Source of the DNA: Komagataeibacter sucrofermentans DSM 15973
GTDB taxonomy: Bacteria; Pseudomonadota; Alphaproteobacteria; Acetobacterales; Acetobacteraceae
DNA length: 64,000 bases
Direction: 5' to 3'
Assembly: GCF_040581405.1 (NCBI RefSeq)
Contig: NZ_CP137157.1
Coordinates: 1,368,001-1,432,000 of the forward strand
Both the position numbers and the translations under genes were made by a program. Below are positions 9,363-30,767 of this stretch, in pieces. Each line of letters begins with the position of its first letter. The first letter of the stretch is position 1. The notes beneath the pieces are model-generated. The model worked only from the letters and a program-made list of their open reading frames with translations, had not been told where the DNA came from and searched no databases.

Positions 9363-9980
9363 CTATGCGATGTCCTGATCTTGTTGACTGACAGTAAAAC
9401 GTCCCTGAAAAGCCAGCTGGTGTAATGCCCGCCGTCCTGATGGCTGTTCGCGCTCCTGTAATGAATCGGGGAGGGTTTTTGTCTCTCCCTGCCGACCGAT
9501 GATGATAGCGGCATTGAGCGCGTAATCATCGGGTAACTCAAGCCCCGCACGTGCCAGATCCTGATCAAACCCACTGACGGGATGCGTGGCCCAACCTGCC
9601 TTGCTGGCCTGAAGCTGGATCAGCACCGAGGCTGCCCCCGCATCGAATGCATGGGTTGGCGCGGGCACGGGCTCGGCCTTTCCGCCCCCCATGACGGTGT
9701 GCGATGCGATATAGACCAGGGCGGATGCATGTTGCGCCCAGCCATGGTTGAACGGGATCAGCCATGACAGGAACCGCTCCCATTCCGGCGTATCGCGCCG
9801 GGCATAGATAAAACGCCAGGGCTGCGAATTATAGGCCGACGGTGCCCAGCGCCCGGCATCGAGAAAGGCCAGAAGCTCCGCCTCGGCAATCGGGGCAGGC
9901 GTAAAGGCGCGGGGCGACCAGCGGTCAAGGATCAGGCGCTCGACCGGGGTATCGGACAGGCGTTCGGGGGCTTGGGTCAT
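9363..9980 (-). CDS. Nitroreductase family FMN oxidoreductase (205 aa)
   Basis: An FMN-dependent NAD(P)H oxidoreductase. The start gives MTQAPERLSDTPVERL, with AGGACTT upstream. Family signatures include ILDRWSPRAF (the RRS/RWSPR flavin-phosphate region) near residue 20, then AGRWAPSAYNSQPWRFIYA, and AASVLIQLQASKAGWATHP in the second half. It is the last gene of the leftward operon that starts with the SsuD-like monooxygenase, 51 bp after the D-lactate-type dehydrogenase. It may supply reduced flavin or reduce an intermediate. The physiological substrate is unknown. Confidence 0.85.
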   Translation of the reverse strand: MTQAPERLSDTPVERLILDRWSPRAFTPAPIAEAELLAFLDAGRWAPSAYNSQPWRFIYARRDTPEWERFLSWLIPFNHGWAQHASALVYIASHTVMGGGKAEPVPAPTHAFDAGAASVLIQLQASKAGWATHPVSGFDQDLARAGLELPDDYALNAAIIIGRQGETKTLPDSLQEREQPSGRRALHQLAFQGRFTVSQQDQDIA

Positions 9981-10031
9981 GGAAGTCCTGTTTTCAATGC
10001 CGTGGAAATACGCGTTCGGGGCCAATGCCCC

Positions 10032-11453
10032 TTAACCCTGATAGAGCGGCCCCGGCGGCAGCAGCTTGCCGGGGTTGAGGATGTTGAGCGGGTCCATGGC
10101 GTGCTTGAGCGCGCGCATGACCGCGAGCGTGCCCGCGCCGTGCTCGGTCTCGAGAAATTCCAGCTTGCCCATGCCCACGCCGTGCTCGCCGCTGCATGAG
10201 CCACCAAGGGCCAGCGCCCGGTGCACGATCCTGCGGTCAAGCTCCAGCGCCCGGGCATGACCCGCGGGCGTATCATCGGTGATGATGAGGGAGTGGAAAT
10301 TGCCATCGCCCACATGCCCCAGCAGCGGCACGCGCAGGCCGGAAGCTGCAATATCCTCCCGCACGCCCGCGATCAGTTCGCCCAGCTTCGAGATCGGCAC
10401 GATGCAGTCGGTTGAAATGACGCGCGCGGTCGGCTCGATGGCCTTGGCGGCCCAGAAGGCATCGTGCCGGGCCTTCCACAGCCGGGTGCGTTCCTCCGCC
10501 GTATCGGCCCAGGCAAAGGCCAGCCCGTTATTGGACAGGGCAATGGCCTCGACCGCCGCCACCTGCTCCTGCACGCTTGCAGGCGCGCCGCCAAACTCGA
10601 AGAACAGCGTGGTGAGATCCTGATAGCCGTCCAGCTTCGAATACCGGATCGAGGCCGCCATCTGCACGTCATCGAGCAGTTCCACCCGGCTGATGGGAAT
10701 GCCGCACTGGATGATCTCGATCGCGGTCCGCACGGCGTCATTGAGGTCGGCAAACTGGCATACGGCGGCGGAAAGCGCCTCAGGGCGGCCATGCAGGCGC
10801 AGTTGCACCTCGGTGATGATGCCCAGCGTGCCTTCCGAGCCGATGAACAGCGATGTCAGGTCATAGCCGGTGGACGACTTGCGCACCCGCCCCCCGGTGC
10901 GGATCACCTCGCCCGTGGCCAGCACCACGGTCAGGCCCAGCACGTTCTCCTTCATGGTGCCATAGCGCACGGCGGCCGTGCCCGAGGCGCGCGTGGCGCA
11001 CATGCCGCCCAGCGTGGCCTCGCCACCCGGATCAACCGGAAAGAACAGCCCCGTATCACGGATCTGCGCATTGAGCGCCTGCCGCGTCAGCCCGGCCTGC
11101 ACGCGGCAGTCCAGGTCCTCGGGGTTCATCCCGACAATGGCGGTCATCTCGGACAGGTCGAGGCTGATGGCCTGTTCGGCCGGCGTGACATGCCCCTCGA
11201 CCGACGTGCCGGCGCCAAAGGCCACCAGCGGCACCGCATGGGCGTGGCAGGCACGCAGCACGGTGGCCACATCTTCCGTTTTACGGGCAAAGACCACGGC
11301 GGCGGGCAGGCAGGCGGTTTCCATGGCCTCGCCATGGCTGTGGGCCTCGAGCACCGAGGGCGATGTGCTGACCTGCCCGGCCAGCCCGCCTGCGCGGATG
11401 GCGCTCAGGGCGGCCTGAAGGCGGGCTGCAGCAGGCACGGAGATAATGTTCAT
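10032..11453 (-). CDS. FAD-linked D-2-hydroxyacid (D-lactate/glycolate-type) dehydrogenase
   Basis: A 473-residue flavoprotein of the D-lactate dehydrogenase/GlcD family that oxidises a D-2-hydroxyacid to the 2-oxoacid and passes electrons to a quinone or cytochrome. The PCMH-type FAD-binding domain spans about residues 45-225 (VPLVAFGAGTSVEGH; PVDPGGEATLGGM; SSTGYDLTSLFIGSEGTLGI). The C-terminal FAD-oxidase cap contains HVGDGNFHS, GSCSGEHGVGMGK and DPLNILNPGKLLP. The frame is open 37 codons farther upstream; I chose MNIISVPAA because homologous sequence begins there, although its ribosome site is weak. The sulfur-operon context suggests a sulfur-containing hydroxyacid substrate, which is inference. 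Confidence 0.88.
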   Translation of the reverse strand: MNIISVPAAARLQAALSAIRAGGLAGQVSTSPSVLEAHSHGEAMETACLPAAVVFARKTEDVATVLRACHAHAVPLVAFGAGTSVEGHVTPAEQAISLDLSEMTAIVGMNPEDLDCRVQAGLTRQALNAQIRDTGLFFPVDPGGEATLGGMCATRASGTAAVRYGTMKENVLGLTVVLATGEVIRTGGRVRKSSTGYDLTSLFIGSEGTLGIITEVQLRLHGRPEALSAAVCQFADLNDAVRTAIEIIQCGIPISRVELLDDVQMAASIRYSKLDGYQDLTTLFFEFGGAPASVQEQVAAVEAIALSNNGLAFAWADTAEERTRLWKARHDAFWAAKAIEPTARVISTDCIVPISKLGELIAGVREDIAASGLRVPLLGHVGDGNFHSLIITDDTPAGHARALELDRRIVHRALALGGSCSGEHGVGMGKLEFLETEHGAGTLAVMRALKHAMDPLNILNPGKLLPPGPLYQG

Positions 11454-11569
11454 CAAAAGAAGATCCCGGTCGCGGCCCGGAAGGCCAGTTACGATCATGC
11501 TGCGAGATGGCAGGGCGCGGGAAAAGTCATGTTCTTTTCCCGGTCCTGGCAAATGGCGTTGCAATCAGG

Positions 11570-13183
11570 TTATGGGCCATCTTCCAGCACGCTGAAGCCA
11601 TGTGTCCCGTCACGTTCCAGCTGGGCTACAAGTCCGAATTCCCAGTCCAGATAGGCCTGCATTGCGGCGGTGGCATTATCGGTGCCTTCATAAGGGCGCT
11701 TGTAGACATCGTCAGCCCGCGACAGGGCACGGCTTTCATCCAGCCCGGTTTCAAGCGGCAGGCCCGCGTTGCGCCATGACAGGGTGCCTCCCGCCAGTAC
11801 GCGTACGTGCAACCCCTGTTTGCGGAGTTCCGGCGCGGCAATGCGCGCGCCCAGCCCATCGGGAGAAGTCAGGACGATCTTGGCATTCTTCTCCCATGTC
11901 TGTGCAGGCAGATCGCTACGAATGGCGAAGACCGCGCCGGGCACATGACCGCGGCGGAACGTGGGGCTGGATGCGAGGTCAATCACAACCGGGGCATGCG
12001 GTGTGTCCAGTTCGGCCGCCAGTTCCCGCGCACCCACCGTTTCCACCTCCGGCAGTGGCGCCACCAGCGTGGCGGGTTCAGGCCCGCTGGCGCGCGGCAG
12101 CCCTGCCCAGTCATGCAGGACATAGACTTCCTGCCAGCCCAGCTGACGGAGCCAGTGGCCTGTCATGCGCGCGCGCACGCCGTCATCATCGGTCAGCACG
12201 ATGGTGCCATGGCGCACGCCCACCCATTCATCCGTGGCCTGTACCAGTTGCCCACCGGGCGCAGAACGGAAGCCCTTGAGGTGTTCCGTCACGTATTCCT
12301 CAGGTGAGCGGACATCAAGCCGATAAAGGGTGCGTCCTTCCCGTGCTTCCAGCTGGTCCAGTTCCGTGCGCCCGATTTCCCGCACACCCGTGCGGCGGGC
12401 AAGGGAGCGGGCTGTCTCGCGCGCCTTTGCCACATTATGGGCTGATGGGTCTCCCGCCTTCCGGGTCGCATCATGATCGAGTTGCAGGCCGGCCAGTGTC
12501 CAGCCGATCGTGCCGTTACGCAGCGCAAGGACCGGGTTGGGAATACCGGCATTGACCAGGGACTGCGTGCCGATGATCGAACGCGTGCGCCCGGCGCAGT
12601 TCACGACCACCGTTGTATCGGGCGATGGCGCGATATCGCGCACACGCAGCGCCAGTTCTCCCCCGGGCACGGAGCGGGCGGTCGGAATGGACATGGTATT
12701 GTATTCGCCAAACCGTCTGGCATCGAGGATGACAATATCCTCCCCCTGCTCCAGCCGCTCATGCAGGTCGCGCGCCGCGATCGAGGGTGTGCTGCGCACG
12801 TGTTCCACCAGTTCCCCGAATGCCTTGGAAGGGACGTTGACATCGATGAACAGCTCCCCCCCGGCCTCCCGCCAGCCATCCAGGCCGCCTTCGAGCACAC
12901 TGACATCGGTATAACCCAGCGCCGCCAGAACAGGCAGCGCACGGGCCACGCGCCCTTCCCCATTGTCATACAGCACAATGGGGGCATCGCGGCGGGGGAT
13001 CAGCCCCCCGATCCGCTCCTCGATGCGGCCGAGGGGCAGATTGACGGCAAACAGGGGGTGTGCCGAGGCAAACGGACCTTCCTCACGCAGGTCGAGCAGG
13101 GCGATTTCATGCCCTTCGCGCAGGCGATCGCGCACGAAACTGACGGAAGCAACGCGGGAAGCCGCAGGAATCTGGATATTCAT
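11570..13183 (-). CDS. Four-domain rhodanese-like sulfurtransferase (537 aa)
   Basis: Four consecutive rhodanese-like domains can be followed, at about residues 10-120, 140-255, 290-385 and 400-525. Only the second has a Cys active-site loop (NCAGRTRS). The equivalent loops in the others read YDNGEGR, TDDDGVR and TSPDGLG and lack Cys, so one domain is probably catalytic and three structural or ligand-binding. The reaction expected is sulfane-sulfur transfer. The ATG overlaps the stop of the upstream dioxygenase gene as ATGA, indicating translational coupling. Proteins pairing a multidomain rhodanese with a cysteine-dioxygenase-like cupin fit oxidation or release of sulfur from organic thiols. 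Confidence 0.85.
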   Translation of the reverse strand: MNIQIPAASRVASVSFVRDRLREGHEIALLDLREEGPFASAHPLFAVNLPLGRIEERIGGLIPRRDAPIVLYDNGEGRVARALPVLAALGYTDVSVLEGGLDGWREAGGELFIDVNVPSKAFGELVEHVRSTPSIAARDLHERLEQGEDIVILDARRFGEYNTMSIPTARSVPGGELALRVRDIAPSPDTTVVVNCAGRTRSIIGTQSLVNAGIPNPVLALRNGTIGWTLAGLQLDHDATRKAGDPSAHNVAKARETARSLARRTGVREIGRTELDQLEAREGRTLYRLDVRSPEEYVTEHLKGFRSAPGGQLVQATDEWVGVRHGTIVLTDDDGVRARMTGHWLRQLGWQEVYVLHDWAGLPRASGPEPATLVAPLPEVETVGARELAAELDTPHAPVVIDLASSPTFRRGHVPGAVFAIRSDLPAQTWEKNAKIVLTSPDGLGARIAAPELRKQGLHVRVLAGGTLSWRNAGLPLETGLDESRALSRADDVYKRPYEGTDNATAAMQAYLDWEFGLVAQLERDGTHGFSVLEDGP

Positions 13184-13779
13184 GCTGCCTCCGCACGGCG
13201 GGAGCGATCCCACAGGTTGGGCACTTCTTCGCTGGAATAGCCCGAGATGAAGGTTTTCTCCGCCCCCGTGGCCACATCATAAGTAGCGCGGGCAACGCCA
13301 CCGATATTATCGCCATAGACATGGATGGAAATGGAGGTCCGATCCGGCAGGGCGTTGGCCACGAGATGGTAGTCATTCACGCCCGGCGTAAGGGAGGCCA
13401 CCTGCCCCGGCTCAAGAAACGTGGTCTCTATGGCGCGGAACGTGCCATCAGGATCACGCGCGAACTGGGTCTCGCTCTCCCGCCCCCGCAACATGCCGAT
13501 CAACCCCCATACACGATGATCGTGCAATGGCGTTTTCTGCCCTGCTCCCCAAACAAAACTGACAACCGAAAAACGCTCCAGCGGGTCGCAGTGCAGCAGG
13601 TACTGGCTGTACCGCGCCGGGTTGGGGCGGGTAAAGGGTTCGGGCAGCCAGTTATCGTGCTGGACCAGCCTGCGCAGCAGATCGGCGCCTTGAGCCTGAA
13701 TGGCGGCCGGTGAGAGACCGCGATCATACAGCCTTGTAAAATCGGTTACAAAATCGCGTAGCGGTGAAATGGTGCTCAT
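13180..13779 (-). CDS. Cysteine dioxygenase-family thiol dioxygenase
   Basis: A 199-residue cupin of the cysteine dioxygenase family, expected to be a non-heme iron enzyme that adds O2 to a thiol to give a sulfinate. The iron ligands are seen in PLHDHRVWG (two His, about residues 84-86) and SISIHVYGDN (third His). The residue that would be the cross-linking Cys of mammalian cysteine dioxygenase is not a Cys (GLIGMLRG), as in bacterial 3-mercaptopropionate-type dioxygenases. The substrate could therefore be cysteine, 3-mercaptopropionate or another small thiol. The gene overlaps the rhodanese gene by four bases and follows the class II aldolase by five. Confidence 0.85.
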   Translation of the reverse strand: MSTISPLRDFVTDFTRLYDRGLSPAAIQAQGADLLRRLVQHDNWLPEPFTRPNPARYSQYLLHCDPLERFSVVSFVWGAGQKTPLHDHRVWGLIGMLRGRESETQFARDPDGTFRAIETTFLEPGQVASLTPGVNDYHLVANALPDRTSISIHVYGDNIGGVARATYDVATGAEKTFISGYSSEEVPNLWDRSRRAEAA

Positions 13780-13784
13780 GTCAT

Positions 13785-14585
13785 TCAGTCCAGTAAATCG
13801 GGTTCAAGGGCCACGATCCAGTCCCACAGGGGCTGGAAGCAGAAATACCCGCCCTGCTGGGTGCCCACCTGGCTTGCGGTCAGGCGTGCGATGTCGGGGG
13901 CAATGGGTTTGACCTTCCCGGCGGCTTCGGCAAGGAGCTGGGTGTGGGCGGCGTTGTCCATGGTCAGGAACCACCACGCCGCCGCTTCCACCGTCGGGCC
14001 AACGGTCAGCAGGCCGTGATTTTGCAGGATCAGCGCCTTGCGCGGGCCAAGGGCGTGGGCCAGACGCTCGCCTTCGCTGTCATCGAGCACAACGCCACTG
14101 AAAGGATCAAACAGCTCATGATCCTCATAGAACGCGCAGGAATCCTGCGTGATTGGCAGCAGCTTTTTACCCAGCGCGGAAAAAGCCTTGCCATAGGTGG
14201 AATGGGTGTGGGCCGCCGCAATAACGTCGGGCCGCGCCCGGTGCAGGGCGGAATGGATGGTAAAACCCGCCGTATTGATGGGCCGGTCCCCCTGCAGGAT
14301 CGTGCCGTCGTGATCCACCAGTTGCAGATCGGATACCCTGATCTGGGAGAAATGAACCGCCAGCGGGTTGATCCAGTACTGATCGGGAAACTCCGGATCG
14401 CGCGCGGTCACGTGCCCGGCCAGCCCCTGATCGAACCCATAGCGGGCAAACAGCCGGAATGTTGCGGCCAGCCGCTGCTTGCGGTGCAGGCGCTCGGCTT
14501 CAAACGATGCGGCTGCCGGGCGTGGTTGCAGCCTGCGTGCCCGTGCCTGCGCCTGATTGTGCCGGGAAGAGGGTAATACGTTCAT
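13785..14585 (-). CDS. Class II aldolase/adducin-family protein
   Basis: A 266-residue zinc-dependent aldolase/epimerase-fold protein. The zinc ligands are visible in AAHTHSTYG (two His) and LQNHGLLT (third His), in the usual order. The N-terminal 25 residues are basic and Arg/Gln-rich and lie outside the domain. Members of this family cleave or decarboxylate phosphorylated or non-phosphorylated hydroxy-carbonyl compounds. Here it sits between a thiol dioxygenase and a hydroxyacid dehydrogenase in one tight leftward operon. A C-C cleavage or decarboxylation step on an organosulfur-derived carbon chain is a reasonable but unproven role. Confidence 0.85.
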   Translation of the reverse strand: MNVLPSSRHNQAQARARRLQPRPAAASFEAERLHRKQRLAATFRLFARYGFDQGLAGHVTARDPEFPDQYWINPLAVHFSQIRVSDLQLVDHDGTILQGDRPINTAGFTIHSALHRARPDVIAAAHTHSTYGKAFSALGKKLLPITQDSCAFYEDHELFDPFSGVVLDDSEGERLAHALGPRKALILQNHGLLTVGPTVEAAAWWFLTMDNAAHTQLLAEAAGKVKPIAPDIARLTASQVGTQQGGYFCFQPLWDWIVALEPDLLD

Positions 14586-14610
14586 GAAGAAGGCTCCCTG
14601 TCAGGAAAGA

Positions 14611-15588
14611 TCAGTAACCACGGTCCGCATCCACCACATCAAGGAGCGGACGATCGCTAAGGAAACGGTTCAGATTGTCCGCGATGCGGCGGGCGAGGTT
14701 CTGGCTCACGGCAGGCCCTGTCCATGACAGGTGCGGCGTCAGCCGTATGGCGGGATGGCTGTAAAACGGGTGCCCGCGGGGCAATGGCTCAGGCGTGGTG
14801 ACATCAAGGGTGGCAAACCCGACCTGCCCGCGATCAAGCGCATCGAGCAGCGCGTCCTGATCGACCAGGCCACCCCGGGCGACGTTGATCAGGTGGAGGC
14901 CGGTCCTGGCACGCGCCAGCAGGGCGGCGTTGACGCATAATGCCGTCTGGGCCGTCAGCGGCAGGGCGAGGACAAGGTGATCGGACTGCCCGGCCAGCGC
15001 CTCGAGTGTGGCAACGGGCTGCACATCCGTATCCGCATGGTCCCAGGCGCCACGCCGCCATGCCAGCACCCGCATGCCAAACGCCCGCGCACGCACTGCC
15101 ACCGCCCGCCCGATCGCCCCATACCCCGCCAGCCCCAGCGTCTGGCCTGCCAGACTGGCCAGCGGCGGCATGGCCTTGGCCTCCAGCCACCCCTCCGGCC
15201 CATCCGGCGCAATCGCATCAAGCCGTTTGGCGCGCAGCAGAATGGCCGCAAGCACGTATTCGGCAATGGGGATGGCCGCATCACCACGACCACATGTTAC
15301 CGTGCGCCCGCGCAGCAGCCATTGCGGAAACCCGTCCACGCCAGCGGAAGCAAGCTGTACCCATCGCGGGCCGTGCCGTTGCCATGCCTCTGGCGGATGA
15401 CGGGGCGCGTTGCGCCATGCTGGCGTGGGTGCGGTCAGCAGAATATCCGCATGCCCGACATCCCACGGCGCCGCGCATTCACGCTCAGCCGCCACGACTT
15501 CTATCCTCTCCGCGAACTCAGCCAGCGCTGGCGCCAGAAACGCGCCAATCTGGTTGACCACGACCGGAGCCCGGGCGATTACGGCCAT
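14611..15588 (-). CDS. NAD-dependent D-2-hydroxyacid dehydrogenase family protein
   Basis: A 325-residue dehydrogenase interconverting a 2-hydroxyacid and 2-oxoacid with NAD(P). The Rossmann dinucleotide motif GYGAIGRAVAVRARAFGMRV (written GxGxxG) lies near residue 155. The catalytic Arg is in NVARGGLVDQDAL, the Glu in TTPEPLPRGHP and the His in LTPHLSWTG. The gene is in the sulfur operon between the monooxygenase and the aldolase with short gaps. It is one of three unrelated hydroxyacid oxidoreductases in the island, with those at 10032 and 25909. Confidence 0.87.
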   Translation of the reverse strand: MAVIARAPVVVNQIGAFLAPALAEFAERIEVVAAERECAAPWDVGHADILLTAPTPAWRNAPRHPPEAWQRHGPRWVQLASAGVDGFPQWLLRGRTVTCGRGDAAIPIAEYVLAAILLRAKRLDAIAPDGPEGWLEAKAMPPLASLAGQTLGLAGYGAIGRAVAVRARAFGMRVLAWRRGAWDHADTDVQPVATLEALAGQSDHLVLALPLTAQTALCVNAALLARARTGLHLINVARGGLVDQDALLDALDRGQVGFATLDVTTPEPLPRGHPFYSHPAIRLTPHLSWTGPAVSQNLARRIADNLNRFLSDRPLLDVVDADRGY

Positions 15589-15599: not shown

Positions 15600-16691
15600 T
15601 CAGGCTGCCGCAGTCCGGCCTTGCCCATCCTCGGCCGCAATCAGGGCGCGGACGCGCGGGATCAGGTCGCGCCCGTATTCATAGGCATCCTCCAGCGGAT
15701 CAAAGCCGCGGATCAGGAAGGTGCTGATCCCGATACGGTAGTAATCCAGCAGCGCCTCCGCCACCTGATCGGGCGTGCCAACCAGCGACGTCGAGTTTCC
15801 GCGCGCGCCGGTCAGGGCGGCGATGCCGGTCCATAAGCGCTTGTCGAGGCGTGACCCCTGTTCAGCGGCAGCCAGCAGGCGGCGCGAGCCTTCGTTCGGG
15901 ATATCGGCGGCACGGGCATAGCCGGTTTCAGCCTGCAGGGCGCGGGCGGTTTCAAGGATCCGGTCGGCCTTGGCCCAGGCGGCCTCTTCCGTATCCGCCA
16001 GGATCGGGCGCAGGGAGAGCGAAAAGCGCGGGGAGCGTCCATGCCTTGCGGCGGCGGCCCGTACGCGCGCCACGGTTTCACTCACCTGTTCATAGGTTTC
16101 GCCCCACAGGGCATAGACATCGGCATGCTTGCCCGCCACCACGATCGCCTCATCAGAAGAGCCGCCGAAATAAACGGGAATGCCACTTTCACGGTAGGGA
16201 CGAACCAGCGAGCTGGCCCCGCGCACATTGTAGAAATCCCCCGTATAGTCAAAGGGGACGCGACTGCCCCACTCCGAGCGGACGATATCCAGATATTCGC
16301 TGGTGCGGGCATAGCGGCGGGCCTTGGTCGTATGATCGCCATCGGCCTGCAGTTCGACATCACTGCCGCCGGTGATGATATGCACCGCAACGCGCCCCCG
16401 GCTCAGATTATCAAGCGTTGCCAGTTGTCGTGCCGCGATGGTGGGGGCGTTGAAGCCGGGCCGGTGCGCGATCAAAACCCCGAGATCGCGCGTAACCGAA
16501 GTGACATGCTGCGCCAGAAGAATACTTTCGGGCGAGTTGGAATGAAACGCGATCAACGTACGGTCAAAACCGGCGTTTTCATGGATCTTGGCCGAAGCCT
16601 CGATGTGGTTGAGATCAACAGCCGCTCCCTGCGGAGGAATGGTTTCCGACTGATTGCGACTGCCGATAAAGCCGATAAATTCCACAGGCAT
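15600..16691 (-). CDS. SsuD-like FMNH2-dependent alkanesulfonate monooxygenase (LLM family)
   Basis: A bacterial-luciferase-like monooxygenase of about 363 residues that uses reduced FMN and O2 to release sulfite from a sulfonate. The protein begins MPVEFIGFIGSRNQSE and shows AGFDRTLIAFHSNSPES, HRPGFNAPTIAARQLATLD, GRVAVHIITGGSD and VYFGGSSDEA, all typical of SsuD/MsuD/SfnG relatives. An alternative ATG lies five codons upstream; I prefer 16691 because GGGGA precedes it and homologues start there. It is first in the leftward operon and divergent from the LysR gene. FMNH2 probably comes from the flavin reductase at 18524. The exact sulfonate is unknown. Confidence 0.88.
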   Translation of the reverse strand: MPVEFIGFIGSRNQSETIPPQGAAVDLNHIEASAKIHENAGFDRTLIAFHSNSPESILLAQHVTSVTRDLGVLIAHRPGFNAPTIAARQLATLDNLSRGRVAVHIITGGSDVELQADGDHTTKARRYARTSEYLDIVRSEWGSRVPFDYTGDFYNVRGASSLVRPYRESGIPVYFGGSSDEAIVVAGKHADVYALWGETYEQVSETVARVRAAAARHGRSPRFSLSLRPILADTEEAAWAKADRILETARALQAETGYARAADIPNEGSRRLLAAAEQGSRLDKRLWTGIAALTGARGNSTSLVGTPDQVAEALLDYYRIGISTFLIRGFDPLEDAYEYGRDLIPRVRALIAAEDGQGRTAAA

Positions 16692-16772
16692 TGCTGCTAT
16701 CCCCATATTGCACGATGATGATTCGTCGTTTAGATAAATCTATCACTAGAATAATGTTAATTGGCAATTTAA

Positions 16773-16842: not shown

Positions 16843-17736
16843 GTGTCACATCCCCCTCCCCCCCGCGCGCCACAGCGGATGGCGCGCAATGTGCAGACTG
16901 AACTGCTGCGTTCGTTTGTTGCCATTGTGGAGGCGGGCTCCATGGCGCAGGCGACGGAAACAATCTTCCTGACCCAATCCGCACTGAGCCTGCAGATGAA
17001 GCGACTTGAAGACATGCTGCAGCAGAAGTTGTTCCGGCGTGACGGGCGCAGGCTGCTGCTGACCGCAACGGGCGAGGAACTGGTCACCTATGCCCGCCAG
17101 TTGCTGGCGCTGAATGACCGGATCATGCAGAATCTGGGCCAGCAGTCCGACCCCGAGCCGATTACGGTCGGCATGGTCCAGGATTTTGCGGATACCATCC
17201 TGCCTGACGTTCTGGGTCGTTTCCGGCTGGAGCATCCGCGCGCGCGGTTGATCGTGCGCGTGGGGGGCTCAATGGAACTGCTTGAAATGTTTGACCGTTC
17301 TCGCCTTGATCTGGTGCTCTGCCTTGGCCAGCATGGCGACCGGGCCGGTGCATCATGGGATGTCGTGGGGCATGACCAGATGGTCTGGCTAGGCGATCCC
17401 GCCAATATCGAACGCGAGGAACTGCCCCTCGTGCTGCTCGAGCCCCCCTGCCGTTTTCGTGATGCAGCCCTGCGCACCCTGACGGAAGCGCGGCGGGATT
17501 ATCGTATCGTCATGGAGACACCCAACCTGCCCGCCTTGCGCGCAGGCGTGCGCGGTGGGATCGGAATCAGTTGCCGCACGCGCCGGTTCGCCGCCGCCGA
17601 AGGCCTGCCGGTCATAACCGCCAGTTCCCTGCCCCCCGTACCTGATATCGAAACCATTCTGGTCCGGCGTGATGGGCTGATGGACAGTGCCCATGATTTT
17701 GGCGACCTGCTCGCCGATGCGGCGGGGAACCGATGA
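16843..17736 (+). CDS. LysR-family transcriptional regulator (297 aa)
   Basis: A LysR regulator with the winged helix-turn-helix at about residues 18-77 (LRSFVAIVEAGSMAQATE, then LTQSALSLQMKRLED) and a C-terminal effector-binding domain. The start is GTG, preceded by GGAG; the extreme N-terminus is proline-rich (SHPPPPRAP). It stands between the leftward sulfur-metabolism operon and the rightward uptake operon, the classical position for a CysB/Cbl/SsuR-like local activator. The effector is unknown. Confidence 0.9.
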   Translation: MSHPPPPRAPQRMARNVQTELLRSFVAIVEAGSMAQATETIFLTQSALSLQMKRLEDMLQQKLFRRDGRRLLLTATGEELVTYARQLLALNDRIMQNLGQQSDPEPITVGMVQDFADTILPDVLGRFRLEHPRARLIVRVGGSMELLEMFDRSRLDLVLCLGQHGDRAGASWDVVGHDQMVWLGDPANIEREELPLVLLEPPCRFRDAALRTLTEARRDYRIVMETPNLPALRAGVRGGIGISCRTRRFAAAEGLPVITASSLPPVPDIETILVRRDGLMDSAHDFGDLLADAAGNR

Positions 17737-22011: not shown

Positions 22012-22977
22012 ATGTCCGAATTTCTCAAAACCCGGCTGCTGTCGCATCCATCACGCCGGACCATGGTGAAAGGCCTGGCAGGCATGGGGCTGCTGGCTTC
22101 CGTACGCACCGCCTCTGCGCAGGACAGCCTGCTTATAGGAGACCAGAAAGGCGGAACGCATGCCTTATTGAGCGCGGCAACATCCGGGCATATTGATAAT
22201 GCCATGATAACATGGAGCCTGTTTGCTGGCGCACCGATGTTGATCCAGGCACTTGCGGCCAACGCGGTGGACACTGGCGCCATCGGGGACGCCCCGCTTG
22301 CGTTTGCCCAGGACGGAACCAGTACGATTCGCGCCATAGCTGGCATTCAGAGCGATGGGACGACAACCGCCATCATCACGCGGCGTGATAGTCCGATCCA
22401 TACGGTTGGCGACTTGAAAGGCAGGTCCATCGCCACCCTTCGTGCCCAGACCGGGCATTACCTGACCCTGGCCGCACTCCGTGCCGCTGGAATGCATGAT
22501 GATGACGTACACTTTGTCTTCCTGCCGCCCGTTTCTGCACGGGCGGCGTTGCAGACAGGAGCCGTTGACGCATGGGCAACCTGGGGGCCGTATGTTTCTG
22601 CGGCCATCATCACCGATGGTGCACGGGAAATCGTGAACGGCGGGCAACTGATGAGTGGCCTGAGCTATGTTGTCGCAACGGTCGATGCCCTGCATGCAAA
22701 AAAGGATGCCCTGGCTGCTTATGTACGCCAGTTGAAAGCGGCCCATGAATGGGGTCGTGCCAACCCGGACGAATATGCCGCCGCCTGGGCTACTGACGTC
22801 GGGTTGCCCCTGGCCGTTGCCCGACGTGTCGTGCCGACCATGCTGGGTGATGTTGTTACCCTGAATCCGCACGTCATACAGAAGCAGCAGGACGTATGTG
22901 ACTTCATGTATGATACCCGCATGCTTTCTCATCGACTGGATGCACGTGCTATTATGGATACTGGCTTTATTTTCTAA
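22012..22977 (+). CDS. Second ABC-type substrate-binding protein
   Basis: A 321-residue SsuA-like periplasmic binding protein with a likely Tat signal (SRRTMVKGLAGMGLLASV, cleavage near ASA). The mature protein starts QDSLLIGDQKGGTHALL and shows QALAANAVDTGAIGDAPLAFA, DLKGRSIATLRAQTGHYL and AVDAWATWGPYVSA, all standard for aliphatic-sulfonate binding proteins. It lies 93 bp after the ATPase and could share that transporter with the first binding protein. Confidence 0.88.
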   Translation: MSEFLKTRLLSHPSRRTMVKGLAGMGLLASVRTASAQDSLLIGDQKGGTHALLSAATSGHIDNAMITWSLFAGAPMLIQALAANAVDTGAIGDAPLAFAQDGTSTIRAIAGIQSDGTTTAIITRRDSPIHTVGDLKGRSIATLRAQTGHYLTLAALRAAGMHDDDVHFVFLPPVSARAALQTGAVDAWATWGPYVSAAIITDGAREIVNGGQLMSGLSYVVATVDALHAKKDALAAYVRQLKAAHEWGRANPDEYAAAWATDVGLPLAVARRVVPTMLGDVVTLNPHVIQKQQDVCDFMYDTRMLSHRLDARAIMDTGFIF

Positions 22978-23363
22978 TAATGGACTGTTTTACAGGTCGT
23001 TTTTCTTGAAAAAAATAATAGCAATGCTGTTTTCAAGGACTTTTGGGGCGCACCGCAAAGGATAATCCCTCTTCACCAGGCCGGTATTAGCGATAAGCCC
23101 GATCGCCAATTCATGCCGGCATCTGCCAAATTACGTTGCTGGAACCTGGTTTGCCGCGCGTTGCAGCGAATGGATGGAAGCTTGAATACCAACATATAAC
23201 ATTCCATGAAATTACTCATTATATTTAAAGAAAACATGATAATATTTCCATTTATAATATAACATTACAAAATATAACATCATGATTTAAAATTATTTAT
23301 TATTTTATTCCCTCATTCGGGCATATGCAACGCATGAAAACCAGAGGAAATGATACGTTGTAC
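22978..23363 (+). other. AT-rich leader before a TonB receptor gene
   Basis: The region turns sharply AT-rich after about 23200. It probably holds the promoter of the receptor gene. I see no gene. The reading frame of the receptor is open from 23325, but the signal peptide fits a start at 23364. Confidence 0.4.
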
Positions 23364-25814
23364 ATGAGATATATTTCTACATATCTATCCTTCGTGGGCG
23401 TTCTGCTTTCCACTACCGCTTATGCAGCCGACCGTCCTTCCTGGCAGGCAGATAACATAAAAAATACAGAGAGCCTCACACCTTTCCGGCACCACGTACG
23501 CAGTCTTCATCACGACAACAAAGAACAGGACAGTTCCGAGCAGATCATCGTAACTGGTACGCGCGACCCGTCACAGACGGCTCGCAAAAGTTCAAGCCCC
23601 ATTACCGTGATCAATGGAGATAAACTGCGTTCCACTGGCATGACAGATATTCGCGAAGCCCTTGTACAACTTTCACCGTCCATCAGTCGTGAAGTTAATG
23701 GCTCCGATCAGGGCTCCATCGTTGATTCCCTCAGCCTGCGCGGCCTGAATGCCGACCAGACACTCGTGCTTGTAAACGGTAAAAGACGCCACACAACAGC
23801 AGCTCTCAATTTTGACGGTGGTTCCCAACAGGGCACAACACCGGTCGATCTTGATATGCTGCCCATATCATCAATCGATCATATTGAAATTCTTCAGGAT
23901 GGCGCAGCCGCGCAATATGGATCCGATGCGATTGCCGGTGTTATCAACATTATTCTCAAATCGAATAATAAAGGTGTTAATCTACAATCCACCAATGGTG
24001 GTTATTATGCGGGAGATGGCTTTACTACAGGAGAAAATATCAATGCTGGATTCAACCTCGGAAATCGTGGTTTTTTTAATCTGAGTGCGGAATACAAGCA
24101 TCAGGACCGAACGCAACGCACCGGCATTGACCCACGCACCGGCCGCGATAACGACCTTGCAACGGGTCAGCCGCAGGTCACACGGGAGGCTATTGAGGGC
24201 AATTTTAGCTACCACATCACGAATAAGATTGAAGTTTATGCCTTTGGCACCTTTACCCATCGTGATGCTGAACGATGGGCCTATCTTCGCGCGCCCAGCA
24301 CAACAGCGGCTGACGGATTATCTGCTGTCTATCCCACCGGGTTTGAACCGGTCGAGACGCTACCTGAAAATGATTACGGCGTTACCGCAGGTGTAAAGGG
24401 CAAGCGGTTTGCCAGCTTTGACTGGGATATCAGCTCAACCATTGGGAGCGACCATGATAATCTGAGCGACTACAATTCCGCAAACGCCACCGAATATGCC
24501 GAGACCGGCTATACAAAAAAACGTTTCTATTTAGGCACTTACAGCAATCAACAATGGACGAATAATCTCGATGTTAGGAGACCTGTAGATATAGCCCCCC
24601 TCTATAAACCACTTAATATAGCCTTTGGTGCGGAATATCGACATGAAACATATGCCATGCATACAGGGGAGCCATGGTCATATATTGGCTCTGGAGCCCA
24701 GGGCTACCAGGGCATTACGCCGACATCCCGTGTAGATGCAGCCCGACATGTTGCTGCTGCCTATGTCGATTTTTCCACCCAATTCCTGCGCGGATGGCAA
24801 TTTGATCTTGCTGGCCGGTTTGAACATTATTCTGACGTGGGTAATGCACACACCGGAAAGATTTCAACACGATATGATGTAAACAGATATATCGGGTTCC
24901 GTGGCACCGCAAGCACAGGGTTCCGCGCACCGACCCTGGCCGAGGAAAACTTTGCCAACCTCACAGTAAGCCCCAATTATGCCAATGGACAGATTTCTCC
25001 AAATTCTGCCGCAGCGCGTTATCTCGGCTCAACGGGCCTGCATCCCGAAACATCCACCAACTTCAGTGTCGGCATGATCCTCAATCCATTGCCGCGACTT
25101 CATGTTAATGTTGATGCCTATACCATAAAAATAAAACACCGTGTGGTTGATGGAGGCGTCTATAACGGTCAAATGGCCATAAATGCTTACAAGTTCAATG
25201 GTATTGACGTGAGTGGTTTCGGGGCCGATCCCAATTCCGTCAGCGCCCAGTTCTTTACAAATGGTGCCAACACACGCACGACCGGACTGGACATTACCGC
25301 GAGCTATGATACCGATTTTGGGCGTATTGGTCATTTTACCTGGGACGCCGCAGTCAATTTCAATCATACAAATGTTAGTGACATACAGAAAGATGGCAAT
25401 GGCAATCCTGTTCTGAATGCCCAGCAGATCAATTACATATCAACGGAAAACCCAGCCAATAAACTGATTTTTGGTGGTACATGGCGCAAGGGAAAATGGA
25501 ATGTGTCCGTGCATGAGATCCGCTATGGTCATAGTACATCCAACCTGACCTATGTCTCGGGCCCTAATGCATGGTCAAACAGTGTCTTTTATGAACAGGT
25601 TAATAAACCGCGTTTCGTAACAAATCTCGAAATTGGTTACCAGGTTCTTCCGCAACTGCATCTAGCACTCGGAGGCAATAATATCGGGAATACGTATCCC
25701 AGCCGCGTGCCGGTCAACACATCTGACTACAATAACAACAAATATGATACTGGCAGTCAGCAATTATCGGAAGAAGGTGGCTTTTACTATATTCGTGCTG
25801 ATTTCAGAATATAA
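23364..25814 (+). CDS. TonB-dependent outer-membrane receptor
   Basis: An outer-membrane receptor of about 816 residues. From the ATG at 23364 a clean signal peptide is read (MRYISTYLSFVGVLLSTTAYA). In-frame ATGs exist at 23325 and 23334 and a TTG at 23358 better spaced from AGAGGA, so the start is uncertain by a few codons. The plug includes EQIIVTGTRDPSQTARKSSS, LRGLNADQTLVLVNGKRRH and IEILQDGAAAQYGSDAIAGVINIILK. The barrel ends FRI. It lies between the sulfonate ABC genes and an FMN hydroxyacid oxidase, implying the same substrate system. Composition is AT-richer than the ABC genes. Confidence 0.92.
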   Translation: MRYISTYLSFVGVLLSTTAYAADRPSWQADNIKNTESLTPFRHHVRSLHHDNKEQDSSEQIIVTGTRDPSQTARKSSSPITVINGDKLRSTGMTDIREALVQLSPSISREVNGSDQGSIVDSLSLRGLNADQTLVLVNGKRRHTTAALNFDGGSQQGTTPVDLDMLPISSIDHIEILQDGAAAQYGSDAIAGVINIILKSNNKGVNLQSTNGGYYAGDGFTTGENINAGFNLGNRGFFNLSAEYKHQDRTQRTGIDPRTGRDNDLATGQPQVTREAIEGNFSYHITNKIEVYAFGTFTHRDAERWAYLRAPSTTAADGLSAVYPTGFEPVETLPENDYGVTAGVKGKRFASFDWDISSTIGSDHDNLSDYNSANATEYAETGYTKKRFYLGTYSNQQWTNNLDVRRPVDIAPLYKPLNIAFGAEYRHETYAMHTGEPWSYIGSGAQGYQGITPTSRVDAARHVAAAYVDFSTQFLRGWQFDLAGRFEHYSDVGNAHTGKISTRYDVNRYIGFRGTASTGFRAPTLAEENFANLTVSPNYANGQISPNSAAARYLGSTGLHPETSTNFSVGMILNPLPRLHVNVDAYTIKIKHRVVDGGVYNGQMAINAYKFNGIDVSGFGADPNSVSAQFFTNGANTRTTGLDITASYDTDFGRIGHFTWDAAVNFNHTNVSDIQKDGNGNPVLNAQQINYISTENPANKLIFGGTWRKGKWNVSVHEIRYGHSTSNLTYVSGPNAWSNSVFYEQVNKPRFVTNLEIGYQVLPQLHLALGGNNIGNTYPSRVPVNTSDYNNNKYDTGSQQLSEEGGFYYIRADFRI

Positions 25815-25908
25815 AAATATTTAAATATTAATAACTAAAATTACAATACGAATCTATTCTTCGCTCATACCCGAAATATCGTAACCTAAAAAGTAGGACA
25901 GTGGTCAA

Positions 25909-27054
25909 ATGACACGATATGCATATAATATCTCTGATTACAGGAAACTGGCAAAAAAGCGTATCCCAAAAGGTATTTTTGAATATATTGACCGAGGCTC
26001 CGAGAATGAAATTGCTCTAAATAGAAATAGGGAAGATTTTGACTGTATAGAAATTATACCACGTTTTCTAAGAGATGTACATTCAGTCGATACTGCAACC
26101 TGCATACTCGGATGCACATATCAAACGCCTCTTATTGTTGCGCCTACGGCATTCTCTGGTCTTGTGTGGAACAATGGAGAACAGCTTATTGCCCGTGCGG
26201 CAGGGCATCTTGGCGTGCCTACCTGCGTTGCAATGATGTCCATTACCCCATTGGAAATGATAGCTCAGGGTACAACCGTCCCGCCATGGTTCCAGCTTTA
26301 TTTCTGGAAGAACCGCGAAAAGACTTACAATCTGATTAAACGTGTGGAAACTGCCGGTATCGATAAACTCATCATAACCGTTGATGGACCCGTGCGGGCG
26401 AACCGGGAATATAACGGGCGCAATGGTTTTGGCATGCCATTTCGCTTTTCATGTCGTTCCATTCTGGATCTGGCCCGGCATCCGTCATGGCTTGTCTCAA
26501 CCATCCTGCCACATCTGTGGGAAACCGGCCTCCCCTCACTGGTACATTACCCTACGAACGCTCAACCCAATATATTGCATGCCCCTAATGACGGCTCTAT
26601 CGGCCTTGCAAATGACCTAACATGGGAAGACATCAAGACATTGCGGGACAAATGGCGAGGCAAAATCCTCCTTAAAGGTATTCTAGACGTGGAGGATGCC
26701 CTTTTGGCTAAATCCATTGGGGTAGATGGCCTTGTACTATCAAATCATGGTGGGAGAAACCTGGATTCATCCCCCTCTGCTTTATCTGTTTTGGCACAGA
26801 TATTACAACATGTCGGAAAGGACATGACCCTTCTTGTTGATGGCGGAATCATGCGGGGAAGCGATATCTTTAAGGCCGTTGCGCTGGGAGCATCGGGAGT
26901 ACTTGCTGGTCGCGCACCATTATGGGGTCTTGCCGCAAAGGGAGAAGAAGGCGCGCGTGCTGCCATTTCCATCCTGATACAGGAATTCAAAACGACCATG
27001 GCTCTAGCCGGGTGCAGGAATATATCAGAAGCTAAAAAGATCCATATTACGTAA
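25909..27054 (+). CDS. FMN-dependent alpha-hydroxyacid oxidase/dehydrogenase (L-lactate type)
   Basis: A 381-residue TIM-barrel flavoenzyme oxidising an L-2-hydroxyacid. Signatures: DYRKLAKKRIPKGIFEYIDRG (N-terminal, about residues 8-30), PLIVAPTAFSGLVW, the active-site segment VLSNHGGRNLDSSPSAL with catalytic His near residue 280, and LLVDGGIMRGSDIFKAVALGA for FMN phosphate. It is between two TonB receptor genes, 94 bp after the first. Together with the D-specific FAD enzyme at 10032 it would allow both enantiomers of a hydroxyacid to be oxidised. The specific substrate is unknown. Confidence 0.88.
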   Translation: MTRYAYNISDYRKLAKKRIPKGIFEYIDRGSENEIALNRNREDFDCIEIIPRFLRDVHSVDTATCILGCTYQTPLIVAPTAFSGLVWNNGEQLIARAAGHLGVPTCVAMMSITPLEMIAQGTTVPPWFQLYFWKNREKTYNLIKRVETAGIDKLIITVDGPVRANREYNGRNGFGMPFRFSCRSILDLARHPSWLVSTILPHLWETGLPSLVHYPTNAQPNILHAPNDGSIGLANDLTWEDIKTLRDKWRGKILLKGILDVEDALLAKSIGVDGLVLSNHGGRNLDSSPSALSVLAQILQHVGKDMTLLVDGGIMRGSDIFKAVALGASGVLAGRAPLWGLAAKGEEGARAAISILIQEFKTTMALAGCRNISEAKKIHIT

Positions 27055-27204
27055 TAACAATATTTGTTTTACTCAAAAATTACATGATAAAATCAAAACT
27101 ATTGAAAATATGAAAACAGATGATTTGATATATTTCTAAAAACTATTATAGACATTTATACGAAATATAGAAAAAATAGCATCAGAAAAAATGATGGTGT
27201 TATT

Positions 27205-29811
27205 ATGAAAATAATTTCCGATCGCAATATGTATAAATATTTATCATTCCTGTTCCTGATAAATATCGCATACGAAAAATCCCACGCCCAATCGGTTTCA
27301 TCGACCTCGGTGAAACCAGCGCGGCCCCGTGCACATAAATCCGTTAATACAGAAGGCGCTCTTGTCCATCCATACAGCGCCGCGCGCCCTCCTCAGGCCG
27401 AACAGGTCATTGTAACTGGTACGCGCAGTAATGTACGAGCATCTCACAGCATGTCGCCTATTGTAGTTCTGTCGCACGCGGATCTTACCCGGACAGGTCA
27501 GCCTAACCTGCGCAATGCCCTGGCTACGCTTGATCCATCCATTAATAATACGCCTGGTTATCCGGGACAGTTGGGTTTTACAACTAAAACAGCGTCCTTA
27601 CGTGGTTTGCCAGCAAACGAAACGCTGGTACTGGTTAATGGCAAACGCCGTCATACCATGTCGTCTATTTTTTACGGTGGTGCCATGGAGGCTCAGTCTC
27701 CCGTGGATTTGGACCTTATTCCCATGAGTGCCATTGACCATATAGAGATCCTTAAAGATGGTGCCGCCGCACAGTATGGGTCCGATGCAATTGCAGGCGT
27801 TATCAACATTATCCTGAAAAAATCCGACCATGGTGGATCAGCAGAACTGAGCTATAATCAATATGGCTCAACCGTTGGTACACTGGGTGATTATGGTCGT
27901 GGTGGCAATCTGTTTTTTAACGATGGATTCAAAATCGGTCATGATGGCGGATATATAAATATCAGTGCAGACATTACCGGAAACCAATGGACCAATACCG
28001 CAGGTTATGCCCCCCTTCGGAAGGGAGGTGTCACCACGCAGCTTTACCCCCTGCAGGCAAATGGGCAGCTTGACCCACGCGAATATGGCAACCGATACAG
28101 ACAGCTTTATGGTGTTCCCGAAACGGAAAAGCAGGCCGTATCCTATGATATGGCGGTGCCATTGGGGAAATGGGCCGAATTCTATTCATTTGCCACATAT
28201 GCGCACCGCACGGCATATGAGCCAGGCTGGTACCGCCCTGCCAATTCATCACAGAACATCGCCAGCGTATATCCTGAGGGCTACCTACCCATCATATCAA
28301 CGAAAGATCAGGATTTTCAGGTCACGGCTGGTTTGCGGGGGCGAAACTTTTTCGGGTGGGGCTGGGATCTCAGTGTAAATTATGGACGCGATCAGACAAC
28401 GCCCGGGCTGAGTAATTCGATCAATGTATCCATGGGGCCTGAAAGTCCTCATAATTTCAATCTTGGCACATTGATTAATTCTGAACTTACAGTTGATTAC
28501 GATATACATAGAAAATTCGATACAGGTATTTTAAAATATCCACTGTCAGTCGCGGCCGGCGTGGAATATCGCTATAACGAATATCAGATCGTTGCAGGCG
28601 AAACGGCTGCCTGGGAAGATGGCGGTTACGTTTTTCCCAATGGTACCAAGGCACTTCCCAGTGCTGCCGGGCTCGGGGCCTATTATCCTTCTGCCGCAGG
28701 CACCTATTCACGTATGAACGGAGCTTTTTATCTTGAACTTGACCAGCGCCTGACCAAAAAACTGTCCGTACAGTTGTCTGGACGGAATGAAACCTATAGT
28801 GACTTTGGCAATACGCTTAATGGCAAGGTATCAGCGCGCTATCAGGTTACGCCATGGCTGGCCCTTCGCGGGTCGGCAAGTAACGGGTTTCATGCGCCAA
28901 CCTTACAGCAGGAATATTTCCAGAGCGCGGCAACATTTTACACAACACTGTCACAGCAGAACAACGCCCTCGTTACAACGACAAACGAGTATTCCTCAGT
29001 CAACAGTGTAGGGGCAAGGGCACTGGGGGCATCAAATCTCAAGCCAGAGACATCACATAACTTCGGAGCAGGCTTTGTCTTAACTCCGATCAAGAATCTT
29101 GATATTTCGGTTGATGTTTATCGAATTGACATTTTCAATCAGATTGTTCCCCTTAATGTATCTGGCAATGGCGTAACCGGTGCGCAGGTCATGAATATAC
29201 TCCATCAGAGCGGTGCCGTGCCTGATGATGGAAATTATTATCAATACACGTTCATGCGCAATGCGGCACATACCGAAACCGAAGGCCTTGATCTGCAGGC
29301 CCATTACCTGTCCCGTTTTGGACGGGCGGGCACGGTCAACTGGACTATAATGATGAATCAGCAACAACATATGATAAAGCGGATCAACCCGCTTGCGCTT
29401 AATCTTGGGTCTGCGGTGCAGCCTCTTTTCCGTAACGAGATTGGTAACCTGACAACTATCTACCCGCGCAACACCCTGCGCATGACGGGCACGTGGAACT
29501 TTGGCCCCCTTTCTACTACGGTACGTATATCGCGTTATTCATCCACGACAATCCTGTCCAACCTGGGTTCTACCTATGATGAAAAGGTTGAACCAGCATG
29601 GCTCATGGACTTTGATATTGCGTACCGCTTCAAGAAAAGATGGATTGTCTCGGTAGGGGGCAACAATGTATTCAACAAACGGCCCAATGTTCTTAGCAGC
29701 AAGGCACAATCAGCATCATCATTGTATCAGATCAATCCGAATTACAGCACGGCATCTATTTATGGCGCTGAAGGCTCCTATTTCTATGGAAAGATGCGAT
29801 ATACATGGTAA
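27205..29811 (+). CDS. TonB-dependent outer-membrane receptor (868 aa)
   Basis: A receptor with a signal peptide (MYKYLSFLFLINIAYEKSHA after a short alternative leader), a plug with EQVIVTGTRSNVRASHSMSP, LRGLPANETLVLVNGKRRH and IEILKDGAAAQYGSDAIAG, and a C-terminal barrel ending RYTW. Its closest relative in the window by eye is the receptor at 23364. Its stop overlaps the start of a binding-protein gene by 7 bp, an unusual direct coupling of outer-membrane receptor and periplasmic binding protein. The ribosome site is weak (ATG at 27205; in-frame ATG at 27229). Confidence 0.92.
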   Translation: MKIISDRNMYKYLSFLFLINIAYEKSHAQSVSSTSVKPARPRAHKSVNTEGALVHPYSAARPPQAEQVIVTGTRSNVRASHSMSPIVVLSHADLTRTGQPNLRNALATLDPSINNTPGYPGQLGFTTKTASLRGLPANETLVLVNGKRRHTMSSIFYGGAMEAQSPVDLDLIPMSAIDHIEILKDGAAAQYGSDAIAGVINIILKKSDHGGSAELSYNQYGSTVGTLGDYGRGGNLFFNDGFKIGHDGGYINISADITGNQWTNTAGYAPLRKGGVTTQLYPLQANGQLDPREYGNRYRQLYGVPETEKQAVSYDMAVPLGKWAEFYSFATYAHRTAYEPGWYRPANSSQNIASVYPEGYLPIISTKDQDFQVTAGLRGRNFFGWGWDLSVNYGRDQTTPGLSNSINVSMGPESPHNFNLGTLINSELTVDYDIHRKFDTGILKYPLSVAAGVEYRYNEYQIVAGETAAWEDGGYVFPNGTKALPSAAGLGAYYPSAAGTYSRMNGAFYLELDQRLTKKLSVQLSGRNETYSDFGNTLNGKVSARYQVTPWLALRGSASNGFHAPTLQQEYFQSAATFYTTLSQQNNALVTTTNEYSSVNSVGARALGASNLKPETSHNFGAGFVLTPIKNLDISVDVYRIDIFNQIVPLNVSGNGVTGAQVMNILHQSGAVPDDGNYYQYTFMRNAAHTETEGLDLQAHYLSRFGRAGTVNWTIMMNQQQHMIKRINPLALNLGSAVQPLFRNEIGNLTTIYPRNTLRMTGTWNFGPLSTTVRISRYSSTTILSNLGSTYDEKVEPAWLMDFDIAYRFKKRWIVSVGGNNVFNKRPNVLSSKAQSASSLYQINPNYSTASIYGAEGSYFYGKMRYTW

Positions 29812-30767
29812 GGAATTCCCTGCCCCTCTCACGTCGCAAGTGCCTGATGACCATGATGGCAACAGGCATGACCGCGTTTTCCGATCCATCGTGGTCTGAT
29901 GACCGGACGGTTCTGTCCGTAGGGGACCAGAATGAAAGTCTCCGTTCATTGCTGGAAGCCGCGGGGGAGGCAACAACTTTTCCATATCACATCGAATGGA
30001 AACAGTTTTCCCAGGCGCAACCGCTCCTGCAGGCACAAAACGCCGGTGTGATTGATTTCTGTCATGCGGGGGATGTCGCCTTTCTGTTTGCCTATGCTGC
30101 GGGTGCGCCCATCGTCGCCATTGGCGGCAGTGTGGATGGCGGTCGAAGCGCAGCCATTGTGGTAAGGAACAAATCTGCAATACATGCGGTCCAGGACCTA
30201 AGGGGAAAACGCGTTGCGCTGAGCCGGGCGGGGCTTGGCGAACCCCTGCTATATGGTGCGCTCGCTCAAAGCGGCGTTGACCGGACTGATGTGCAGGTCG
30301 TCAATGTGCCGCAGAGTGTAGCCAGAATGGCTCTTGCAACCGGCCAAGTTGATGCGTGGGTTACCTGGCAACCCTATGTGGCCCTTGCAACGGGGATGGA
30401 TGACGCACGCATTCTGCGTGATGCAAAGGGAATTCTATCATTTTATGTGTTTGCACTTGCGCATCAGGCCGTACTGGAAAATCCTCTCAAGCGGGCCGCC
30501 ATCATCGACCTTGAAAAACGCGTGGGCCGGGCACTGGAATGGGCACGCACGCATAAGGATGCCTATTGTGAAACCTATGCGAGGATATCTCACCTCCCGC
30601 ACAACATCGCTGCACTTGCCATCGAAGAAAGTGATCGCCGTTCGATCGTTATTGATGAAAATGTCATAAAAGGAACCAAAGAGTTATACGATAACCTACG
30701 CTCATATGGGCTGCTAAAAAATGGTATTGATATCAGCCACGCATTTGACCTGGCCGTGTTGGACTGA
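29805..30767 (+). CDS. SsuA-like substrate-binding protein coupled to a TonB receptor
   Basis: A 320-residue periplasmic binding protein. The N-terminus LPLSRRKCLMTMMATG resembles a Tat signal. Mature features: VLSVGDQNESLRSLLEAAGE, QPLLQAQNAGVIDFCHAGDV, DLRGKRVALSRAGLGEPLLY and QVDAWVTWQPYVALA. It has no permease or ATPase of its own nearby and probably feeds the ABC set at 20162-21918. The 7-bp overlap with the receptor gene implies co-translation. Downstream lies the insertion-sequence region, which may have removed further genes. Confidence 0.87.
   Translation: MVRNSLPLSRRKCLMTMMATGMTAFSDPSWSDDRTVLSVGDQNESLRSLLEAAGEATTFPYHIEWKQFSQAQPLLQAQNAGVIDFCHAGDVAFLFAYAAGAPIVAIGGSVDGGRSAAIVVRNKSAIHAVQDLRGKRVALSRAGLGEPLLYGALAQSGVDRTDVQVVNVPQSVARMALATGQVDAWVTWQPYVALATGMDDARILRDAKGILSFYVFALAHQAVLENPLKRAAIIDLEKRVGRALEWARTHKDAYCETYARISHLPHNIAALAIEESDRRSIVIDENVIKGTKELYDNLRSYGLLKNGIDISHAFDLAVLD

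Follow-up and report, generated by a model that had tools for sequence, protein, structure and literature searches.

The window, a 64,000-nucleotide stretch of the Komagataeibacter sucrofermentans DSM 15973 genome (3.44 Mb, 5 contigs), carries what we read as a cluster for scavenging sulfur, of a type that recurs among proteobacteria, with glcD and lldD as later passengers, a reading to which, cluster type and passenger verdict taken jointly, we assign a probability of roughly 0.65. The cluster probably imports and oxidises small organic sulfur compounds. The island is a mosaic, consisting of a recurring core plus later passengers, and its two gene arms diverge from lysR (16843-17736), with the minus arm running to 9363 and the plus arm to 30767. 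Scans of 20 ORFs with Pfam and NCBIfam models recover every gene type named in the first-pass annotation in its place, confirming that inventory and the two divergent directions around lysR. Two genes come in addition to the inventory, encoding a nitroreductase-family protein (9363-10025) and an AhpC/TSA-like redoxin (17836-18534). The genes of the island are as follows.

9363..10025, minus strand: nitroreductase-family protein (PF00881), belonging to the Acetobacteraceae version of the cluster
10032..11564, minus strand: glcD, FAD D-lactate-dehydrogenase-like, passenger
11570..13213, minus strand: four-domain rhodanese (four Pfam stretches), whose only Cys loop, CAGRTR, is in domain 2
13180..13779, minus strand: cdo, thiol dioxygenase, matching the 3-mercaptopropionate dioxygenase type
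13785..14585, minus strand: aldII, 'class II aldolase' (Aldolase_II), predicted iron-dependent oxygenase/decarboxylase
14611..15588, minus strand: NAD-dependent 2-hydroxyacid dehydrogenase (2HADH; 2-Hacid_dh_C), facultative core member
15600..16706, minus strand: LLM (luciferase-like) flavin-dependent monooxygenase (Pfam Bac_luciferase), distant from SsuD
16843..17736, plus strand: LysR-type regulator (domain scan)
17836..18534, plus strand: AhpC/TSA-like redoxin (domain scan)
18437..19057, plus strand: flavin reductase, RutF/HpaC-like (Flavin_Reduct; 177 bits to the RutF model, below its cut-off of 254.75), with its true start probably downstream of 18534
19083..20165, plus strand: periplasmic binding protein 1 (domain scan; 83.6 bits against an SsuA family cut-off of 163.5)
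20162..21157, plus strand: ABC permease (domain scan)
21151..21918, plus strand: ABC ATPase (domain scan)
22012..22977, plus strand: SsuA-family binding protein 2 (TIGR01728, 188.5 bits, above cut-off)
23325..25814, plus strand: TonB receptor 1 (domain scan), in a low-GC block, probably a separate acquisition
25909..27054, plus strand: lldD, FMN alpha-hydroxyacid oxidase (domain scan), in the low-GC block and not conserved with the core
27205..29811, plus strand: TonB receptor 2 (domain scan), in the low-GC block
29805..30767, plus strand: SsuA-family binding protein 3 (TIGR01728, 171.8 bits, above cut-off)

The named genome collection was scanned once with an alignment of 11 rhodanese sequences, and the best 80 of 581 confirmed loci were kept. 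These loci, chosen via the rhodanese and in some cases ending at contig edges, were searched with the window proteins as queries, each with a separate identity threshold. Among the best 80 of 581, the rhodanese is present in 80 loci, cdo in 71 and LLM in 53, followed by binding protein 2 (35), aldII (26), binding protein 3 (20), the ATPase (18), the permease (17), binding protein 1 and 2HADH (16 each), lysR and the AhpC-like redoxin (15 each), the flavin reductase (9), the nitroreductase (6, all in Acetobacteraceae), tonB1 (4) and tonB2 (3), and both glcD and lldD are found in 0 of 80 at the thresholds used. The best rhodanese matches within this set come from Gluconacetobacter and other Acetobacteraceae. 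A by-eye count over the 12 Acetobacteraceae loci (L041-L052) gives cdo and rhodanese in 12, LLM and aldII in 11, lysR in 10, the redoxin in 9, the flavin reductase in 8, 2HADH in 7 and the nitroreductase in 6; with 7 of 12 loci among the best 80 of 581, 2HADH is facultative even in this family.

A second approach, in which the locus ORFs were clustered without the window as a guide, agrees with these counts. In this clustering, LLM is present in 22 of the 23 aldII-bearing loci, at a distance of at most about 1 kb in 19 and of 6-8 kb in 3, while cdo and rhodanese lie no more than 69 bp apart in all 59 loci where both clustered. 2HADH is linked with aldII in 9 of the 13 loci that hold it, and an acyl-CoA-dehydrogenase-family protein, related to SfnB at 101 bits (below the cut-off of 430.9), occurs in 41 loci, LLM being present in 38 of these. 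The Azospirillum B510 plasmid record holds LLM, 2HADH, aldII, cdo and rhodanese, the Klebsiella plasmid record LLM, cdo and rhodanese, and the Sodalis plasmid record cdo and rhodanese only. The core (LLM, 2HADH, aldII, cdo and rhodanese on one arm; lysR, the AhpC-like redoxin, the flavin reductase and the SsuA-type importer on the other) thus recurs in Acetobacteraceae and recurs partially in alpha-, beta- and gammaproteobacteria. Because many genera carry these genes, frequently in matching order, this linkage is more than chance. The results support the organosulfur-type cluster with thiol oxidation that the first-pass annotation had proposed, and its gene set co-occurs elsewhere, in Acetobacteraceae and other proteobacteria, as far as the core is concerned but not for glcD and lldD. 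Of the single island that it had described, the linkage of the core holds, but the GC break, the copied glcD and the unlinked glcD and lldD leave the whole unconfirmed as one unit.

Less biased genome samples show how far the core extends. Among 120 genomes of the family, aldII is found at an identity of at least 67% in 9, with LLM no more than 1.2 kb away in all 9 and with cdo and rhodanese beside the aldII-LLM pair in 5 of them. Two other results speak against a tightly linked system. When family-sample cdo loci are viewed with about 1.5 kb on each side, other core genes appear in only 5 of 30. In the phylum sample, 13 of 398 genomes contain aldII at E<=1e-80; LLM, cdo and rhodanese all lie near it in 5 of the 13 (the window, L034 and L173-L175), and LLM is absent nearby in the remaining 8. 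In the candidate scoring of this sample, which took the best 4 to 6 per genome, absences are not strict; 11 fetched aldII neighbourhoods were inspected directly. At one of these 8 loci (L169:8421-10196), 2HADH adjoins aldII without LLM, cdo or rhodanese, a hint that the two belong together. In the only genome of the same genus in the sample (G060), searches for cdo, LLM, aldII and rhodanese gave no match at the cut-offs applied, indicating that the core is unevenly distributed even between close relatives.

The cdo product aligns over nearly its full length with four PDB sequences at 208-222 bits, and two of these are named 3-mercaptopropionate dioxygenase. It scores 211.9 bits to 3uss/4tlf, compared to 32.1 bits to mercaptosuccinate dioxygenase and 24.1 bits to 9t7v (cysteine dioxygenase type 1). 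The alignment shows the S-x-H-x-Y triad and the carboxylate-binding Arg to be conserved with 3-mercaptopropionate dioxygenases, whose Ser-His-Tyr triad and carboxylate-binding Arg168 are described in the cited parts of PMC10966181 and PMC8050391, respectively. Judged by its sequence, the window 'CDO' matches the 3-mercaptopropionate dioxygenase type. Its gene overlaps the start of the rhodanese gene. Cys206 of the rhodanese, in the CAGRTR loop of domain 2, is invariant in all 11 aligned sequences, and the other three domains, as read from the sequence, lack a Cys loop. Of the 120 family genomes, 54 carry another, more distant type of rhodanese (41-51% identity). A low-identity CDO-family gene lies beside it in 19 of the 54 by a by-eye count, and the pairing of rhodanese and thiol dioxygenase seems to recur there with another dioxygenase subfamily.

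The first-pass annotation knew of no described pathway with this gene set. Our search of the open-access literature likewise brought up no description of the whole set, but the dioxygenase-sulfurtransferase pair is already known in Pseudomonas. In P. protegens, as reported in the part of PMC12947264 cited here, 3mdo (PA2602 homologue) and the next gene (PA2603 homologue) seemingly form one transcription unit, PA2603 is annotated as a thiosulfate sulfurtransferase, and 3-mercaptopropionate rises upon deletion of 3mdo. The same part of that paper reports no significant effect of tst deletion, which speaks against a simple joint role of the dioxygenase and the sulfurtransferase. The 3mdo-tst pair (PA2602-PA2603; c14110-c14100 in P. 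protegens) resembles the window in dioxygenase family and in order, dioxygenase then sulfurtransferase, the sulfurtransferases being likened by name and position; the window adds LLM, the NovR-like gene, 2HADH and the importer. Pseudomonas loci among the best 80 of 581 hold the same adjacent cdo-rhodanese pair. The thiol dioxygenase step is also common to the window and Variovorax paradoxus TBEA6, in which Mdo, Act and AcdA serve the catabolism of 3-mercaptopropionate and 3,3'-thiodipropionate according to the cited part of PMC6370202. The CoA transferase and the acyl-CoA-dehydrogenase-type desulfinase of that pathway are absent from the 20 window proteins scanned; a 56% homologue of the SfnB-like acyl-CoA-dehydrogenase-family protein is encoded elsewhere in the genome, with no other cluster gene within 20 kb around it.

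The nearest solved relative of aldII is NovR (256 bits), followed by 4xxf (247 bits; named fuculose-1-phosphate aldolase), and FucA reaches at most 54 bits. A true aldolase role is doubted on these scores, in spite of the 4xxf match. The window protein (430.1 bits) and the NovR fragment (319.6 bits) both pass the cut-off of the NCBIfam model PRK06208 (255 bits), and the TqaM fragment lies below it at 239.1 bits. Residues were compared in 24 sequences, of which 2 were dropped for length. H126, H128 and H190 are present in 22 of 22 homologues, yet also in 12 of 12 members of a sister aldolase group, so the three His, as aligned, do not establish a NovR-like function. Y131, D148 and D155 are common to NovR and all 22 aldII proteins and are missing from the 12-member sister group. 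From these comparisons, aldII is predicted to be an iron-dependent oxygenase/decarboxylase of the CloR/NovR family. CloR and NovR are described as 3-His iron oxygenases that perform two oxidative decarboxylations via a hydroxyacid, with a prenylated hydroxyphenylpyruvate as substrate (PMC13111500, cited in part). NovR shares with aldII the NCBIfam model and the three aligned His and is its nearest solved relative; CloR and NovR themselves act in antibiotic synthesis. In the literature on the NovR-like family, nothing to the point appears in titles among the matches listed.

The glcD gene is a recent within-genome copy and lies outside the conserved system. Positions 10027-11428 of the window are identical to G000:C1:1652561-1653962 of the same genome save for 6 mismatches in 1402 bp, all within 11058-11391. 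With genome G073, the other locus has many neighbouring ORFs in common and the window locus glcD alone, indicating that the window glcD is the derived copy; genome G030 is uninformative on the direction, with glcD alone common to either locus. Relative to the original frame, the copy lacks about the first 8 codons and extends 5 bp past the stop; it is gene-sized and has a new start region. No insertion element was noticed at its edges. In 82 of the 120 family genomes, glcD has a match at E<=1e-90, and among solved structures it is closest to mitochondrial D-lactate dehydrogenases (429 bits). In L042, L043, L046 and L049, the place of glcD, between rhodanese and nitroreductase, is taken by a gene of the acyl-CoA-dehydrogenase family together with genes for a binding protein, a permease and an ATPase. 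The glcD case shows that co-location can mislead, as the gene for one of the three 'hydroxyacid' enzymes is a recent arrival, copied from another place in the same genome.

The lldD gene is not part of the conserved system either. The genes between 9363 and 22977 have a GC content of 0.58-0.68, compared with 0.47-0.48 for tonB1-lldD-tonB2 and 0.54 for binding protein 3. Across the 120 genomes of the family sample, the best match to lldD other than itself reaches 45%, and no match at E<=1e-112 is found in the 397 other phylum genomes, for which few candidates per genome were scored; a source of the TonB-lldD block was sought in both samples and not found. The glcD copy, together with the non-conservation and GC break of lldD, places two of the three hydroxyacid oxidoreductases outside the conserved set. 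These results bear on the earlier model, which has the FAD (D), FMN (L) and NAD enzymes share the oxidation of a racemic sulfur-bearing hydroxyacid. All three enzyme types are indeed in the window, and the link of 2HADH to aldII is consistent with the model. However, glcD and lldD are each missing from all of the best 80 of 581 loci, glcD is a recent copy and lldD stands in a block of different GC, and we reject the model as extremely improbable.

LLM, which the first-pass annotation had taken for an SsuD-like, C-S-cleaving monooxygenase, is of the gene type named, but SsuD-type sulfonate cleavage by it is doubtful. It reaches 229.4 bits against a cut-off of 510 and 227.8 bits against a cut-off of 518.2 for the SsuD models, missing both by more than half. 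Of Cys54, Arg226, His228, Arg297 and Tyr331, which we take to be active-site residues of SsuD, the window protein retains none. Of 59 cluster members, 3 were dropped for length; S226, R228 and F331 stand at the SsuD positions in 56 of the 56 remaining proteins, C54 and R297 occur in none of them, and Trp196 is kept in 55. Since the examined SsuD residues except Trp196 are replaced in all 56 proteins, SsuD-type cleavage is thought unlikely, and so is plain alkanesulfonate assimilation, in which import and SsuD-type desulfonation would feed sulfite to cysteine. SsuA-type importers with LLM enzymes are a known combination, and the window shares with ssuEADCB an ABC importer with SsuA-family binding proteins, a separate flavin reductase and an LLM monooxygenase, which in the PDB comes closest to alkanesulfonate monooxygenases (7jv3, 201 bits). 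It differs from ssuEADCB in the replaced SsuD residues, the RutF/HpaC-like flavin reductase and the extra thiol and decarboxylase-like steps, and a thiol dioxygenase and a NovR-like protein would be superfluous for a simple sulfonate. Detoxification of thiols or reactive sulfur, with the thiol dioxygenase, rhodanese and redoxin clearing toxic thiols, would fit the AhpC-like redoxin and the dioxygenase-rhodanese pair that stands alone in Sodalis. The importer, LLM and flavin reductase point instead to uptake and use, making detoxification a quite improbable reading.

For the sulfur-scavenging cluster, which we read as oxygen-dependent, we infer the following working. Upon sulfate shortage, the LysR regulator would switch on both arms, and the ABC importer would take up a small sulfur-bearing acid. 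The flavin reductase would supply reduced flavin to LLM, which would oxygenate the acid and split a C-S bond. The NovR-like aldII could catalyse oxidative decarboxylation of a 2-oxo or 2-hydroxy acid, with 2HADH interconverting the two, and the thiol dioxygenase would convert a 3-mercaptopropionate-like thiol to a sulfinate. The rhodanese would deal with sulfane sulfur, and sulfite or sulfide would enter cysteine synthesis. That the cluster substrate is a 2-oxo or 2-hydroxy acid bearing sulfur is a tentative suggestion. We also consider it possible, though doubtful, that LLM, the NovR-like aldII, 2HADH and the dioxygenase-rhodanese pair constitute an undescribed O2-dependent pathway, in which a class II aldolase-fold iron oxygenase would shorten sulfur-bearing 2-oxo or 2-hydroxy acids (for example, methionine- or homocysteine-derived) to a 3-mercaptopropionate-like acid and the atypical LLM would break a C-S bond. 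The labels 'SsuD-like', 'class II aldolase' and 'cysteine dioxygenase' may mislead on the central enzymes of the cluster, and this recurring cluster is a good place to seek a new route by which sulfur is released from organic matter.

An inverted CTTG...CAAG pair, about 15 bases apart, precedes lysR in 8 of 15 relatives (L031, L032, L033, L041, L042, L044, L050 and L052, with L031 and L042 seemingly one locus) and is a possible regulator site. The pair is absent upstream of the window's lysR, which counts against our reading of the cluster, and no operator common to the window and its relatives emerged.

Beyond the plus arm, a run of ORFs at 31013-35759 resembles transposase fragments by eye, and its ORF 31013-31621 shows a weak IS5 match (31.8 bits, below cut-off). 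The island is flanked on both sides by an 84-bp repeat, at 9276-9359 and 32705-32788, with the two copies inverted and about 80% alike. Further copies of the repeat, which looks like an insertion-sequence remnant, lie on contig C2.
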